Assembly: GCA_016934635.1 (NCBI GenBank)
Contig: JAFGSK010000056.1
Span: 1-64,000, forward strand
Direction of reading: 5' to 3'
Source: Caldifarciminota bacterium
GTDB taxonomy: Bacteria > Hydrothermota > Tepidihabitantia > B3-TA06
DNA: 64,000 nucleotides
This document shows, in pieces, positions 55,613 to 63,792 of the stretch. The notes under the pieces are model-generated. The model ran no database searches. It was given only the letters and a program-made list of their open reading frames with translations, and had not been told where the DNA came from. A program made the translations under genes and the position numbers. The stretch's first letter is position 1, and each line of letters opens with the position of its first letter.

Positions 55613-56746
55613 TTAATTCCGATCTTCTATGAGCGATATGATCGGATAGACTGCATTATAGTGTTTTTGGATAAACATCGGTGCCCGTTTGCGATAAAGA
55701 CGTTCTCCGAGACGATCGACTATCGGGATGAGCAAACGCTCGGTTTCGCATAAAACAGGCGATACGGTATGAAGCATACCTGTAGTCTGGTAATTCAGGC
55801 ATGAGCAATTGTTGTTACATCGGGATTTGACCGCACATTCCATGCAAGCGTCGTCTGCTTTAGAGTGCATGTTGTACAGACGCTGACGTTCATTTTCATC
55901 AATCCCAGTGTACACATTACCCATAGTATACATACCCTTATTTGAGACGCCATCCGCTACAAACTGCACACATGGATAGATGTCTCCATCCGGCGCTATT
56001 GAAAGCTGGTATTTACCAAACGAGCAGCGGTAGCACAATGCATCTTCTCCTCGAATATGGGAGGAAAACTTTGTCTCGAACGATGAGAAGTAAAATTTGC
56101 GTTCCTCTAACGTCCAGCGTTCATAGAGCCGGGCGAGTTTGCGGTACTGCCTCTGTAACTCGGTAATGGTTTCATCTGTCCAGTCACCGGCGTAGTTGAG
56201 AGATGCTATTACGTACTTAAATCCCTTCTCTATAAGGAACTTGACGGATTCGGCGTAATACTGAACCGTTTCAGGGGTAACGGTCATAAGGATATTGGAA
56301 TACGGTTGATATTGAAGGAGTAAGTCCATCTTTGGTAAAAGTGCATCGAATGTGCCTTCGCCTGCGGTCGTTCGGCGGTGCTTGTCGTGCGCCTCCGCTA
56401 TACCGTCTAGACTCAGTGCAACCAGCAACCCGACTGAATTAGCGTATTGAAGAAAGTCTTCGTCCATCAGTAACCCGTTGGTGGAAATCTTGAAGTGAAA
56501 TGAGCAGCCTCGTTTACGCTCGAGCTGTTTGCATTTTGCGATGGTCGATTTGATGAGCGGAAGTTTCAACAGCGGTTCGCCGCCGAAGAATATCACACCT
56601 GTGTTAGCCGGGTACAGTTCCGAGGCAAATTCAACCGCTCTGTGGGCGGTCTCCTCGGTCATATCAATCCTGTTTACGGGCGGCGAGTAGCAGTAGGAGC
56701 AGCGCATGTTGCATCCTGTTGTGATATGAAGGGTTACGTGTATTAT
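55613..56746 (-). CDS. Radical-SAM/SPASM-type maturase-like protein
   Basis: The radical-SAM cluster is CNMRCSYCY; the first Cys is encoded upstream of the first ATG (56707), so that ATG cannot be the true start. In frame upstream only ATA codons precede TGA, at 56741-56746, next to a GGGGGTGA site overlapping the preceding stop; ATA start with coupling fits best (about 377 residues). GVIFFGGEPLL, SLDGIAEAHDKHR and a C-terminal Cys-rich SPASM region (CYRCSFG, CMECAVKSRCNNNCSC) match anaerobic sulfatase maturase and peptide-modifying enzymes. Its neighbours are two paralogous exported proteins, likely substrates or partners. Confidence 0.85.
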   Translation of the reverse strand: MIHVTLHITTGCNMRCSYCYSPPVNRIDMTEETAHRAVEFASELYPANTGVIFFGGEPLLKLPLIKSTIAKCKQLERKRGCSFHFKISTNGLLMDEDFLQYANSVGLLVALSLDGIAEAHDKHRRTTAGEGTFDALLPKMDLLLQYQPYSNILMTVTPETVQYYAESVKFLIEKGFKYVIASLNYAGDWTDETITELQRQYRKLARLYERWTLEERKFYFSSFETKFSSHIRGEDALCYRCSFGKYQLSIAPDGDIYPCVQFVADGVSNKGMYTMGNVYTGIDENERQRLYNMHSKADDACMECAVKSRCNNNCSCLNYQTTGMLHTVSPVLCETERLLIPIVDRLGERLYRKRAPMFIQKHYNAVYPIISLIEDRN

Positions 56747-57627
56747 TCACCCCCAGCTTGATCGAGCACACCGGTTTTCTTTAACCAGTAGATGAAATCA
56801 GAAATTTGTCTTTTTAGCAATTCGATCGATCTTTCTCTCGCCTCCAAATATAACGCTTGTTGTTCCTCCTGGTATTCTTCCGGTGTCTGCCCTTTGTTCA
56901 TACTGCTACCTTTAATACGGCACATGGGATCGTAGAATATGGCCACGTTATACTTCCCGCAATTCTCTAACTTCTCAGTAATATTCCCGGCAAGTGAGAC
57001 TGGCGAGAAGTAACTCACACTACTCCAACCTTCCTGCTTATAGAGACCCGTAACCAACTCATCATAATCGTAGTGTGATACGAACTCATAGCCCAATCCA
57101 AGTGTTCTGTTGAATCCATCTAAGTTGAGATTTTTCTCCACCGTATCCGGTTTTAGCCAATTATATCTAGCCATTGCAGTGTCAGGCTCGAAAGTGACTT
57201 CGTCGAGAGTAACTTCATCTGTGTCGAAAATAACACCTTGTTTTTTAAATTCCTCCTCAATAACTACACTTGCTTCCTCCTCAGATAAGAAAACAGGCGG
57301 TGCAACAACAATGCAACCTGCTGATCCCTGACCATCACCATGGATAAAGAGCGGCGCCACTTGCACTATGCTCTTGTCACGGGTTTGAGACTGTTCATTC
57401 TCAGCAATACCCTCATCCGACTCTACGACTTGACCCTGTTCAGTTTCCTGAGCAGTGACCTTACGTATTCCACCCCCCAACAGGAAGGCAGCCAGCGTAC
57501 CTGCGACCAGAGGTTTTGCCTTCCAGATAGCCGGTACGTTGTAGCGTAACAACTCAGGGTTGAGAACTGCAAACTCCCGCGTCGGGTAGAACGGCTCGGT
57601 GTAAATCTTGATCGGCTTTACTTTCAT
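56743..57627 (-). CDS. Membrane-anchored HGxGxGSxGC protein, paralogue 1
   Basis: The 294-residue protein starts KPIKIYTEPFYPTREFAVLN and continues with an almost invariant segment through about residue 52, including a hydrophobic stretch (KPLVAGTLAAFLLGG). After a variable acidic linker come IHGDGQGSAGC (Gly-rich, one Cys), PPVFLSEEEA and helices ending ISDFIYWLKKTGVL. The paralogue at 57637 shares the same blocks. It looks like a substrate or scaffold for the neighbouring radical-SAM enzyme. No known family. Its stop overlaps the next gene's ATA start. Confidence 0.75.
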   Translation of the reverse strand: MKVKPIKIYTEPFYPTREFAVLNPELLRYNVPAIWKAKPLVAGTLAAFLLGGGIRKVTAQETEQGQVVESDEGIAENEQSQTRDKSIVQVAPLFIHGDGQGSAGCIVVAPPVFLSEEEASVVIEEEFKKQGVIFDTDEVTLDEVTFEPDTAMARYNWLKPDTVEKNLNLDGFNRTLGLGYEFVSHYDYDELVTGLYKQEGWSSVSYFSPVSLAGNITEKLENCGKYNVAIFYDPMCRIKGSSMNKGQTPEEYQEEQQALYLEARERSIELLKRQISDFIYWLKKTGVLDQAGGE

Positions 57628-57636
57628 TTCTCCTCC

Positions 57637-58416
57637 TTATTCTGCCTCCAGTATTCCATGCTCCTTGACCCAGGAAATGAAATCTTGGACTTGATTACGA
57701 AGAAGTTCTTCAGATAATTCCTTTGTATCCGCTACTGGGTCGTAAAAGACACCCACATTCGTCCTGTTACCGGAAGATTTCTTTAATTGTTCGACTAAAC
57801 TGTCCGCTACACCTATAATATTGTAGCCATTCCCCGGTATCACCATCGGTATACTCCCTCCCATCTTGCAGCAGTCTTCTCGGGAGATAAATTCGTATCC
57901 GATTTTGAATTTTTCATTGTATCCATCCAAAACTACTTTAACCTTTCGAGTTTCACCCTTGTATTCAAATTCGTAAGTAAAGGTATCCTTAATTGTATCG
58001 TTTCCGTCAAAGGCAATCTTCTGTTTCTTCATCGCATCCTCAATTATCAGTCGTGCCTCACCTTCAGAAAGAAATACAGGCGGAGATATAGCCATACAGC
58101 CAATTGATCCATAGCCTCCTCCGTGAACGAACACCGGTGCAACTCTTGCGGCTGACGTCTCTGGAGCTTCATCACGTGTGGTTTCTTGAAGCTTAACTTT
58201 ATCCCCACTACTAACCTGAACTTGTTCTTCTGTGTTTTGAGCAACAATCTTACTCGTTACCCCACCCAGCAGGAACGCAGCCAACGTACCTGCTACTAAA
58301 GGCTTTGCCTTCCACACCGCCGGGACGTTGTAACGCAACAATTCAGGATTAAGGACTGCGAACTCCCGGGTAGGATAGTCTGGGAAGCCATAGGTTTTTA
58401 TCGGTTTTATCTCCAT
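57637..58416 (-). CDS. Membrane-anchored HGxGxGSxGC protein, paralogue 2
   Basis: ATG 58416 has GGAGG six bases upstream, giving 259 residues; a start at 58431 has none. The N-terminal 52 residues agree with paralogue 1 at about 47 positions, far above the rest of the protein. Then VHGGGYGSIGC, PPVFLSEGEARLII, GYEFISREDCC, NVGVFYDPV and ISWVKEHGIL. The pattern suggests a conserved leader-like region and a Gly/Cys segment that might be modified. It is the first gene of the minus-strand operon. Confidence 0.75.
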   Translation of the reverse strand: MEIKPIKTYGFPDYPTREFAVLNPELLRYNVPAVWKAKPLVAGTLAAFLLGGVTSKIVAQNTEEQVQVSSGDKVKLQETTRDEAPETSAARVAPVFVHGGGYGSIGCMAISPPVFLSEGEARLIIEDAMKKQKIAFDGNDTIKDTFTYEFEYKGETRKVKVVLDGYNEKFKIGYEFISREDCCKMGGSIPMVIPGNGYNIIGVADSLVEQLKKSSGNRTNVGVFYDPVADTKELSEELLRNQVQDFISWVKEHGILEAE

Positions 58417-58584: not shown

Positions 58585-58632
58585 ATGCGCTTGAGTATAA
58601 CAAATCCCCAACAAACAATAGGAGGAAGTTGA
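58585..58632 (+). CDS. Possible 15-residue leader peptide
   Basis: ATG 58585, with AGGAGA nine bases upstream, opens a short frame MRLSITNPQQTIGGS ending TGA at 58630-58632. The TGA overlaps the next ATG (58632) as TGATG, and the frame contains the GGAGG ribosome site of that gene. It may couple translation. Confidence 0.35.
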   Translation: MRLSITNPQQTIGGS

Positions 58633-59783
58633 TGAAACGTGTATGTGCAATCATGCTGCTTCTGGGATTGGTGACTGCAGCATTCGCCCAGGGCAAGGAC
58701 GCCGTTATCGGTGACGGTGCGGAGAACACCGCGGACGGAGATTATGCTACCGTAAGCGGAGGTAAGGAAAACACGAGCCCCGGGTACGGTACGGTGATTG
58801 GTGGAGGTATAAGGAACCAGGCCACATCCAGATTCGTGACTGTCGCAGGCGGCACCTACAACCTGGGTTCGGGAGACAATACGACCATCTCGGGCGGACA
58901 ATCCAACCAGGCTGCGGCTAAAAGCACGGTAATAGGCGGTGGAGAAAACAACAAAGCACTTGGGTCTTGTACTGTGATCGCAGGAGGAAGTAAAAACGAG
59001 GCGACTGCAGACACCTCCACCATATGCGGCGGTGTCGAGAATAAGACGGAGGGTATGGGTTCGACCGTTGCCGGAGGCAGGCAGAACTTCGCAGGAGCCG
59101 TATGCGGTACGGTCGGCGGTGGGAACTTTAATCGGGTAGAAACCGAGTCCGAATACGGAACCGTTGCAGGCGGTGCAAACAATCGCGTGAGTCAGCCCTA
59201 TGCCACGGTGCCCGGCGGACTTTACAACAACGCCAACGGATTTGCGAGCTTTGCGGCAGGGCGCAAGGCTGCGGCAAACCATGCAGGATGTTTCGTCTGG
59301 GCAGACGCGCAGGATCGCTACATCGAGTCTCAAGATCGCAACCAGTTCATTGTCCGTGCACAGGGCGGAGTCTGGTTCGGGGACGACAGCTACCCTAATT
59401 TCAAAAAAGACGCCTTTATCCAGACCACGGCTAAGAACGCCTATCTTTCGAGAGAAACAGGGCAGTGGGAGATCCCGTCTGACCGCGATCTGAAGGAAGA
59501 TTTCGAGGCCGTCGACCAGAAGGATATCCTAGACAAGGTTGCCGAACTTCCTATTACCTCGTGGCGATACAAGGGTGAGGATGCGTCGGTGAAGCACCTG
59601 GGGCCTGTGGCGCAGGATTTTCATGCGACATTCGACCTGGGATCGAGCGGCACGAGTATAACCCCGACCGACCTGGACGGTGTAGCTCTTGCTGCAATAC
59701 AGGCTCTGGTTGTAGAACTTGAGGAAGCTGACGCAAGGATTGCAGAATTGGAAGAAAGACTCAATGCCCTGGAGGAAAAATAA
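58632..59783 (+). CDS. Surface protein with YadA-head-like repeats and S74 chaperone domain
   Basis: The 383-residue product has a signal peptide (LLLGLVTAAFAQG), then about 12 YadA head repeats (STVxGGxxNxA, GYGTVIGGG, TVAGGANNRVS). Residues about 275-370 match the peptidase S74 intramolecular chaperone of endosialidase family (SDRDLKEDFEAVDQKDIL; HLGPVAQDFHATF). A C-terminal coiled coil follows (IAELEERLNALEE). The chaperone normally folds a trimer and may cleave itself off. No outer-membrane anchor is visible, so export or attachment is by another route. It ends TAATG, coupled to the next gene. Confidence 0.85.
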   Translation: MKRVCAIMLLLGLVTAAFAQGKDAVIGDGAENTADGDYATVSGGKENTSPGYGTVIGGGIRNQATSRFVTVAGGTYNLGSGDNTTISGGQSNQAAAKSTVIGGGENNKALGSCTVIAGGSKNEATADTSTICGGVENKTEGMGSTVAGGRQNFAGAVCGTVGGGNFNRVETESEYGTVAGGANNRVSQPYATVPGGLYNNANGFASFAAGRKAAANHAGCFVWADAQDRYIESQDRNQFIVRAQGGVWFGDDSYPNFKKDAFIQTTAKNAYLSRETGQWEIPSDRDLKEDFEAVDQKDILDKVAELPITSWRYKGEDASVKHLGPVAQDFHATFDLGSSGTSITPTDLDGVALAAIQALVVELEEADARIAELEERLNALEEK

Positions 59784-60895: not shown

Positions 60896-61121
60896 GAAGT
60901 TTATACTACTGAGTATCGAGTCTCAAGACACTCATCTCGACGGGGGGCGAGAAACATGAAGCGGGTGTTTTACGTCTGTCTATTAAAGCGGTATTTGTAA
61001 AATGATTCCGCGGGAATTATCGCAGGACGGGCGGTAACCTGCCGGGATACAAAACATGGAGGCGCGTGCGATTACATAATGTGTTTTTCCTGTAAAGAAT
61101 TTATCAACCACGGAGGAATTG

Positions 61122-61982
61122 ATGAAAAAGGCACTTAAGGCTTTTGTCGCGCTGGCATTTTGTTTATCTGCGGTTCGAGCCAGCGAGACCGCTTTGCCCG
61201 TTTCCAAGGACAGCAAGGTGAACGAAGGGAATCCTATGACAACGTACGGTAACGAAGAGTTCTACACCGTATGGGGTGGCCCTTTAATCATAAAAGACGA
61301 AAAGGCTCTTCTTTACTTCAACGGAGTAGATGAACTCCGACAAGCTGGATACGTGTGCGAGTTCGCCCTGCTCAGACTGTACATAACCTCGATGATTGCA
61401 CCGGCCCCCGCCAATATATTCAAAATAGCCGGCGCCTGGGACGAGGCGACCGTTTGCTGGGATAACCGTCCGGGAGAGGATCACAGCATACAAGTCATGA
61501 AGGATTTGCCCTCAAGCCAGGATGTGTGGTTCGAGGTTGACGTCACAAACATAGTTAAGTCCTGGATGAATGAAGGCGAGCCTAATAACGGTTTCTACGC
61601 CGGCATTTCGGAAGATGTCTCCACGGCAGGAGGCTGCCAATTCGCGTCCGGAGAGTTCCCTGATACCACGCTGAGACCGCGTTTGTTCTTGGAGTATTAC
61701 CCTGGCGGTGGTGTGGAACAGCAGGATATGCAAGATTTGTCCTTTAATGTATCCGGCATTACCGGCAGGTGGGCGGATATATCCTTCTCGCTTGACGCTT
61801 CAGGTTTCGTTTCCCTGAAGGTGTACGACGCGCGAGGTAGCCTGATTAAGACACTTTCTGATGGTTTTTCCGGTTCCGGAGATCACGAATTCGTCTGGAA
61901 ACCTGAACAAGCTGGTGTGTATTTTGTTAAGTTGTCATCAGGAAGTAACGTAATTGTAAGGAAGTTCGTGAGCGTAAGGTAA
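61122..61982 (+). CDS. Secreted DNRLRE-type protein with C-terminal sorting-like domain, paralogue 1
   Basis: The 286-residue product starts at ATG 61122 (GGAGG upstream; a TTG at 61119 is too close). After a signal peptide it has the DNRLRE-type middle: WDEATVCWDNRPGEDHSIQV, VDVTNIVKSWMNEG, EPNNGFYAG. The C-terminal domain is VSLKVYDARGSLIKTLSDG and AGVYFVKLSSG. It belongs to a group of three tandem copies and one at 720-1592. The 226-bp gap upstream holds no gene I can support. Confidence 0.82.
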   Translation: MKKALKAFVALAFCLSAVRASETALPVSKDSKVNEGNPMTTYGNEEFYTVWGGPLIIKDEKALLYFNGVDELRQAGYVCEFALLRLYITSMIAPAPANIFKIAGAWDEATVCWDNRPGEDHSIQVMKDLPSSQDVWFEVDVTNIVKSWMNEGEPNNGFYAGISEDVSTAGGCQFASGEFPDTTLRPRLFLEYYPGGGVEQQDMQDLSFNVSGITGRWADISFSLDASGFVSLKVYDARGSLIKTLSDGFSGSGDHEFVWKPEQAGVYFVKLSSGSNVIVRKFVSVR

Positions 61983-62029
61983 GTATCTTGAAAACATCGG
62001 CGATAAGCCTAAAAAACCAAGGAGGCATG

Positions 62030-62875
62030 ATGAGATACTTCGTATTATTCCTGAGTATCTTTGTTTGTTTTGCGGGCTTGCACGCAGACGAAGCAATATA
62101 CGATGCAAGCCTGGATACCGAGGTCGATGAGGAGCTGTCCACCATAAACTTTGGCGCTGAGCCTGCCATCGAGGTTTACGCGGACTGGGAGGACGAGCCT
62201 GTATGGACCGTAAAAGCATTGTTTCTTTTCCCTGTCGATCTTCCCACAGGCGCCGTGATTGACGAAGCGGTTCTCCAGCTTCATGTACTCGATAGATCAA
62301 CCGATCCTGGGCCTTTAAACATCTTCAGGGCAAACGGGCCATGGACCGAGATGTCGGTAACCTGGGATACGAGACCTGGTGAGAACAGAGACATTATGGT
62401 GTCTGAAAACGCCCCGGAGGTTATAATCAATCCTGAACTGTGGGAGATAGACGTTACCGATATCGTCCAGTCCTGGGCCGATGGGTTTCCAAACAACGGA
62501 TTCTACCTCGACGTTCCAGACAACAACAACTGGGTAGACGTCGATCTGGCCACAAAGGAGAACCCTGATCCCGGGATTCGCCCTCATCTGTGGGTGAACT
62601 ACCACACAGGCGGGGCATGTGAAGAAGTCGCCAGCAACCAGGTTTCGCTGGATGTTTCTGGTGTTTGTCCGAGCAGGGTCGATATCAACTATTTCGTACC
62701 TTCATTCTCTAACGTCTCGCTTTGCATCTACGATGCATCCGGGGCATTGGTCGAGAACCTCGAGGTTTCCTCCGGTGATCATTCTATTACATGGAATGGT
62801 AATCCCGGGGTCTATTTCATCAAGCTCCAATCTATTGGAAAGTCGATATCATCGAAGGCAGTGGTCTTACGCTAA
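62030..62875 (+). CDS. Secreted DNRLRE-type protein with C-terminal sorting-like domain, paralogue 2
   Basis: ATG 62030 is preceded by AAGGAGG with suitable spacing; 62027 would be closer than ideal. The 281-residue product has the signal peptide, WTEMSVTWDTRPGENRDIMV, VTDIVQSWADGFPNNGFYLD and a C-terminal domain SLCIYDASGALVENLEV ... GVYFIKLQS. About 50 bp separates it from paralogue 1, so cotranscription is likely. Confidence 0.82.
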   Translation: MRYFVLFLSIFVCFAGLHADEAIYDASLDTEVDEELSTINFGAEPAIEVYADWEDEPVWTVKALFLFPVDLPTGAVIDEAVLQLHVLDRSTDPGPLNIFRANGPWTEMSVTWDTRPGENRDIMVSENAPEVIINPELWEIDVTDIVQSWADGFPNNGFYLDVPDNNNWVDVDLATKENPDPGIRPHLWVNYHTGGACEEVASNQVSLDVSGVCPSRVDINYFVPSFSNVSLCIYDASGALVENLEVSSGDHSITWNGNPGVYFIKLQSIGKSISSKAVVLR

Positions 62876-62937
62876 TCTAATCACCGTGAAGATCACAAGA
62901 TGACAGTGATAGTTCACGGATAAACAAAGGAGGACCA

Positions 62938-63792
62938 ATGAAAAGATACACAGTAATAACGCTAACCATTACCCTCTGCATATTCTTACCTGCCTTTGCA
63001 GACGATGCCACCCTGGACGCAGAACAGGACTGCTTCGTTTCAGGGATGGTTCCGGATGTACCGAGTGGTCCTGAAGTCTATATCGCTGTTGCCGCAGACT
63101 GGGAACTGGAGTTCATTCCGCCGACCAAGAGTCTAATCCAGTTCGATATTGCTTCACTTGGAGACATCCTTGAGGTTCAGGACGCAACCTTGAGACTGCA
63201 CGTGACCAATGCCAGCGCAGCTGGTGAACTTGAGATATTCAGGGCAGGCGGAAGCTGGAACGAGATGACGACAACCTGGAATACCAGACCTGCGGAAGAC
63301 AGGGGAGAAAGCTCCCTAGTTACTCCCACTGGTCTGGGGCAGTTTGAAGTTGACGTCACCGATATCGTGCAGTCCTGGGTCGCGGGTTTTCCCAACAACG
63401 GATTTTATATCGATGCTCCGGACAATGACATGGCCGTAGATTTGTACATCGCATCAAAGGAGGCAACAGCTGCTGGAACCCGACCCAAGCTGCAGGTAAC
63501 CTTTACCCCTGGTGGCGGAGCCGTATCTGAGAATGAGTTCGAGGAGAGAATCCTCCTGAATGTCTCCCACACCTCGTCAGGAACGATAGGCGTGAACTTC
63601 ACGATTCCCTTCAGTGCCCAGGTTTCTCTCAAGGTGTACGACGCGCGAGGCAGCCTCGTAGAGACCCTGGTGGACGGCCCTGCCAACTCAGGCGATCATT
63701 ATCTGGCCTGGGAAGGCTCACCCGGGGTATACTTCGTCCAATTACTCTCCCCGGGTACAAGGACGATTCGCAAGGTGGTTTTAATCGATTGA
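62938..63792 (+). CDS. Secreted DNRLRE-type protein with C-terminal sorting-like domain, paralogue 3
   Basis: The 284-residue product has a signal peptide (ITLCIFLPAFA), WNEMTTTWNTRPAEDRGESS, VTDIVQSWVAGFPNNGFYID and the C-terminal VSLKVYDARGSLVETLVDGP ... GVYFVQLLS. AAGGAGG precedes the ATG. A good terminator follows at 63813-63840. Confidence 0.83.
   Translation: MKRYTVITLTITLCIFLPAFADDATLDAEQDCFVSGMVPDVPSGPEVYIAVAADWELEFIPPTKSLIQFDIASLGDILEVQDATLRLHVTNASAAGELEIFRAGGSWNEMTTTWNTRPAEDRGESSLVTPTGLGQFEVDVTDIVQSWVAGFPNNGFYIDAPDNDMAVDLYIASKEATAAGTRPKLQVTFTPGGGAVSENEFEERILLNVSHTSSGTIGVNFTIPFSAQVSLKVYDARGSLVETLVDGPANSGDHYLAWEGSPGVYFVQLLSPGTRTIRKVVLID

Follow-up and report, generated by a model that had tools for sequence, protein, structure and literature searches.

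A radical-SAM/SPASM enzyme encoded with two paralogous proteins bearing signal-peptide-like leaders: a proposed new variety of maturase–substrate system in a Caldifarciminota bacterium

What does a radical-SAM/SPASM enzyme act upon when it is encoded directly behind two paralogous proteins that share a near-invariant N-terminus? The question is raised by a three-gene locus in a 64,000-nucleotide stretch of a Caldifarciminota bacterium genome (contig JAFGSK010000056.1, positions 1 to 64,000; hereafter the window). The original prediction had placed one maturase-like gene behind two paralogues in a single operon, and this is the layout that we find: the minus strand carries paralogue A, paralogue B and the enzyme in this order between 58416 and 55613, with intergenic gaps of at most 9 bases and strong SD-like sites ahead of both paralogue starts (Table 1). 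No Rfam family was detected within the locus. We class the cassette as a radical-SAM/SPASM maturase–substrate system of a new variety. To the more specific reading that it is a self-contained protein-modification cassette, in which a leader-guided enzyme would modify a Cys-centred core before Sec export and leader removal, we give an even chance.

Table 1. Features of the cassette, in window coordinates.
Feature	Coordinates	Strand	Details or basis
Paralogue A, proposed exported substrate	57637–58416	minus	259 aa from ATG
Paralogue A leader, residues 1–52, extended signal-peptide-like	58261–58416	minus	identity, pN/pS and hydropathy
Paralogue A proposed modified core, residues 98–122, HGGGYGSIGCMAISPPVFLSEGEAR	58051–58125	minus	four-protein alignment
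Paralogue A C-terminal folded domain, residues 108–259	57640–58095	minus	AlphaFold2 pLDDT 71, pTM 0.74
Paralogue B, proposed exported substrate	56743–57627	minus	294 aa; 48% identity to A
Paralogue B leader, residues 1–52, extended signal-peptide-like	57472–57627	minus	45/52 identical; hydrophobic core LVAGTLAAFLLGG
Paralogue B proposed modified core, residues 96–120, HGDGQGSAGCIVVAPPVFLSEEEAS	57268–57342	minus	Cys and P-x-[FM]-[LV]-[ST]-E-x-E-A in all four homologues
Radical-SAM/SPASM enzyme, PapB-related	55613–56743	minus	Pfam Radical_SAM and SPASM, NCBIfam, Cys motifs

The maturase-like identity of the third gene holds: Pfam Radical_SAM (PF04055) is matched at 68 bits (cut-off 29.5) and SPASM at 25 bits (cut-off 21.5), the seven-Cys SPASM pattern is present (CX9-15GX4C ... 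CX2CX5CX3C ... C), and the cluster motif CxxxCxxC reads CNMRCSYC, provided that translation begins upstream of the ATG at 56707. The enzyme falls within the SPASM peptide-maturase group, its best hits being PapB, SCIFF, QhpD and nif11, and the nearest solved structure by sequence is that of the SCIFF maturase CteB (5wgg). PapB (NF047865) is the best NCBIfam family for this enzyme (221.7 bits), and the counterpart in a second genome, G073, scores 260.7 bits against it; neither qualifies as a PapB member, as both fall below the curated cut-off of 340 bits; the match to the QhpD family scores 153 bits against a cut-off of 453. Since the frame opens only ~11 residues ahead of the first cluster Cys, the predicted enzyme lacks an N-terminal recognition domain.

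The frame is open to 56746 and offers none of the codons ATG, GTG and TTG upstream of the first cluster Cys; the first ATG is the one at 56707, and the ORF starting there loses the first Cys of CxxxCxxC. At 56741–56746, overlapping the stop codon of paralogue B, the window reads TAATA in place of the usual TAATG. The ATA at 56741–56743, the sole start that keeps all of the cluster Cys residues, is the probable start of the enzyme: judging from the sequence, ATA either serves as the start codon or reflects a single altered base, in the gene itself or in the draft assembly. The missing standard start and the TAATA where TAATG is expected would also fit an enzyme gene that has decayed by conversion of its ATG into ATA, leaving the cassette as a remnant. 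This is very unlikely, however: the remainder of the frame is undamaged, retains all cluster Cys residues and is 34% identical to the G073 enzyme throughout, a strong GGGGGTGA site lies ahead of the ATA, purifying selection acts on the paralogues, and the deviating base could be an assembly error.

Paralogues A and B have no above-cut-off match in Pfam, NCBIfam or PHROGs, and neither their protein family nor the exact family of the enzyme has a name. Their first 52 residues are near-invariant, as originally described, with 45 identical positions rather than the ~47 counted then (38 of 39 from residue 14 on). The linkers diverge, again as described: identity amounts to 24% over residues 53–89, 65% over the core (90–120) and 35% over the C-terminal part. 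At the codon level residues 1–52 display a pN of 0.10 and a pS of 0.75, meaning that synonymous sites are saturated. The saturated pS beside the low pN shows that A and B duplicated long ago and that purifying selection preserves the N-terminus; the same saturation led us to reject recent gene conversion as the source of the identical N-termini. The hydrophobic core of this segment spans ~13 residues (Kyte-Doolittle mean 2.0) and is followed by V-T-A↓Q or I-V-A↓Q (V/I-x-A↓Q, the A and Q being common to both paralogues). With so short a core followed by such a site, the N-terminus resembles a long cleavable Sec signal peptide more than an anchor, as judged by composition (hydropathy and the candidate V/I-x-A↓Q site), and the description of the two proteins as anchored is not supported in that form.

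Do the paralogues and the enzyme belong together? The original prediction proposed to ask whether homologues of the paralogues always neighbour this enzyme clade, and in the genomes searched they do: the paralogue family is present in 2 of 147 genomes of the phylum, a close enzyme is present in the same two and adjacent in both, and a 390-genome sample across the domain holds no third member of either family. The enzyme search of the 147 genomes separates members (above 750 bits) from the next enzymes (151 bits or less). The same two genomes would coincide at random about once in 10,000, two genomes being a small sample. Four genomes each from the phyla around G325 and G244 contain no member, and viral contigs and plasmids yielded no paralogue relative and, with the enzyme as query, generic maturases only. 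Scans of genome contigs with paralogue B alone or with both paralogues returned no relative, which, given the exact-pattern seeds, is weak evidence of absence. Weak matches to the paralogue profile in G061, G064, G065, G094 and G148 look like chance upon inspection.

The G073 enzyme, 34% identical to that of the window, lies between two paralogues of 178 aa each; the first 16 residues of these paralogues match at 14 positions and the next 31 at 12, and their cores differ. The general RiPP layout, a co-encoded precursor with a conserved leader and a variable core, is seen in both genomes (n = 2 genomes only). The predicted enzyme–substrate pairing is supported by the shared occurrence in the same 2 of 147 genomes, the adjacency, the absence elsewhere in the 390-genome sample, the selected N-terminus and the matching N-termini in G073. 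Alternatively, the paralogues could be membrane-held partners or scaffolds of the enzyme, with another protein as the real substrate, which would suit both their size (178–294 aa, large for precursors, with a conserved folded C-terminal domain) and an enzyme without a recognition domain of its own. We consider this unlikely, as two divergent copies per genome with a constant N-terminus and a variable linker and core form the pattern of a substrate, and no third conserved gene is common to the window and G073 sets. Just upstream of the G073 cassette lies a DUF559/MTES_1575 nuclease-like gene (L038, 7845–8606), to which the window has no counterpart.

The motifs HGxGxGSxGC and PPVFLSExEA, highlighted by the original prediction, are present in both window paralogues. 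Aligning these with the two G073 paralogues (n = 4) reveals conservation of a K-x-I-[KR]-x-Y start, the hydrophobic segment, one Cys, P-x-[FM]-[LV]-[ST]-E-x-E-A, L-D-G-[FY]-N, G-Y-E and a C-terminal F-I-x-[WY]-[LV]-K-x-x-G. HGxGxGSxGC is confined to the window pair: the G073 homologues lack it, including its Gly-rich part, and have in common with the window pair just the Cys plus the P-x-[FM]-[LV]-[ST]-E-x-E-A block. It is therefore not the signature of the family, and its proposed role as the modified motif is not supported. PapB accepts Cys-Xn-Asp with n of 0–6 (PMC9413430). The G073 cores contain Cys-Xn-Asp/Glu pairs with n of 6 and 5, but in the window cores the nearest acid lies 11 residues past the Cys, so any thioether there may be of a different type. 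We considered an FxsB-like crosslink (Phe-x-Ser) at VFLSE and set it aside, as Met replaces the Phe in one of the G073 paralogues; reading LGAC in G073 as a lipobox fits neither its paralogue nor the window proteins.

Ahead of residue 112 the full-length paralogue model cannot be used, and the model of the C-terminal domain has no significant fold match, with no hit reaching E 0.001. Weak, insignificant matches (TM-scores of ~0.2–0.35) recur to PD-(D/E)XK nucleases: PvuRts1I, Cas4, Endonuclease I, TnsA, mismatch endonuclease, RecB and others. The invariant acids (helix 1, LDG, GYE) are compatible with the order E...D...E; the usual lysine is absent. We treat the modelled nuclease-like fold as a lead only. 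Followed further, it would make the paralogues exported nuclease-like effectors with a degenerate PD-(D/E)XK C-terminal domain, the radical-SAM step altering the segment ahead of that domain and so making or guarding the active protein. While the recurrence of these nucleases and the fit of the acids are in its favour, the insignificance of the matches, the missing lysine and the lack of an evident immunity gene render this explanation improbable.

We infer that the paralogues are modified, and the preferred reading, leader-guided modification followed by export, can be laid out as follows. Once the paralogues are translated, the enzyme, having no recognition domain of its own, would bind their conserved N-terminus, which would play a double role as recognition leader and extended Sec signal peptide. 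The original prediction had assigned recognition and anchoring to this region: strong purifying selection and the match of the G073 N-termini at 14 of 16 positions are in keeping with the former, while a cleavable signal peptide suits the segment better than an anchor. A radical modification would then take place in the cytoplasm at the Cys-centred core, which lies behind the variable linker and ahead of the folded C-terminal domain; most probably it would join the invariant Cys to a neighbouring carbon through a thioether. Finally, Sec would export the modified protein and signal peptidase would remove the leader. General Sec export fits because neither the window cassette nor that of G073 contains a transporter or protease. 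Should the cassette operate in this way, radical-SAM enzymes would be able to modify protein-sized substrates destined for export as well, by way of a signal-peptide leader and without a dedicated protease or transporter encoded alongside. The cassette is, moreover, a small and easily tested enzyme–substrate set from an uncultured lineage.

The surroundings suggest that the cassette is an accessory insertion, since its G+C content is somewhat below that of the flanks and the position behind the same elongation-factor-like gene is taken by other genes in G003 and in G001, a genome of the same genus. In G001 it is occupied by a different two-gene set (L095, 3308–4999), so the slot may be an insertion hot spot. 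The divergent neighbour at 58629–59783 encodes Gly/Asn-rich head-like repeats and a C-terminal Peptidase_S74 chaperone domain, a layout that resembles adhesins and tail fibres. Further along, at 61119–63792, three CBM96-like secreted proteins with C-terminal sorting-like tails stand in a row (the first was scanned for domains, the other two were judged by eye).

The closest other enzymes come from genomes that we take, from the look of their sequences, to be Fibrobacter-like, and the cassette points to this large related set. These enzymes group with those of the window and G073 (SH-aLRT 94) at 27–28% identity, and 54 of 151 genomes in the sample of that phylum carry one to four copies. They constitute a large PapB-like radical-SAM lineage without a name, scoring below every NCBIfam cut-off checked (L056–L085, family f126). 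A lipoprotein-like gene lies directly upstream of the enzyme in 22 of the 29 readable loci; its product has a conserved M-x-I-[KRQE]-K leader, a hydrophobic core, a Cys site and then a Ser-rich body with repeated [ST][AS]G[DE][IV]xPP-like motifs, and in 169 of 190 pairs the leaders share higher identity than the bodies. Because many of these proteins contain no Cys except that of the lipobox, the lineage, as read from sequence, must be doing something other than forming a core-Cys thioether. In L079–L083 a gene for a small Lys/Ala-rich protein is found downstream of the enzyme instead, which suggests a putative second substrate type. It is possible, though we are inclined to doubt it, that all of these systems form one radical-SAM/SPASM class spanning at least two phyla, in which the signal-peptide N-region doubles as leader and exported proteins or lipoproteins, not small peptides, are modified.

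How does the cassette compare with known systems? The PapB ranthipeptide maturases provide the best family match over the whole enzyme, share the SPASM clusters and find an echo in the G073 cores, with Asp/Glu near the Cys; however, the enzymes score 222 and 261 bits against the cut-off of 340, CX3D repeats are absent here, and the PapB substrate is a small peptide rather than a signal-peptide-bearing protein of 178–294 aa. A functional analogue for radical-SAM modification of a protein before export is quinohemoprotein amine dehydrogenase, in which QhpD modifies the protein subunit QhpC in the cytoplasm via an N-terminal leader (PMC7876137), although Qhp uses a dedicated protease, an ABC transporter and several further genes, none of which were found here. 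In bufferins a signal peptide takes the place of the leader on an MNIO-modified precursor, as proposed here; Sec signal peptides on RiPP precursors have been called rare, and bufferins are the only case in which use of the Sec route has been shown by experiment (PMC12452194). The bufferin enzyme differs in being an MNIO rather than a radical-SAM enzyme and in needing a partner protein, and its substrates are short and Cys-rich. Finally, the Fibrobacter-like pairs (L056–L084) represent the nearest enzyme lineage, and while their bodies are Ser-rich with repeats and no C-terminal domain comparable to that of the window paralogues was seen, the conserved M-x-I-K-K leader and hydrophobic core encoded directly upstream repeat the layout of the window set: a signal-type leader and a variable body beside a PapB-like enzyme.
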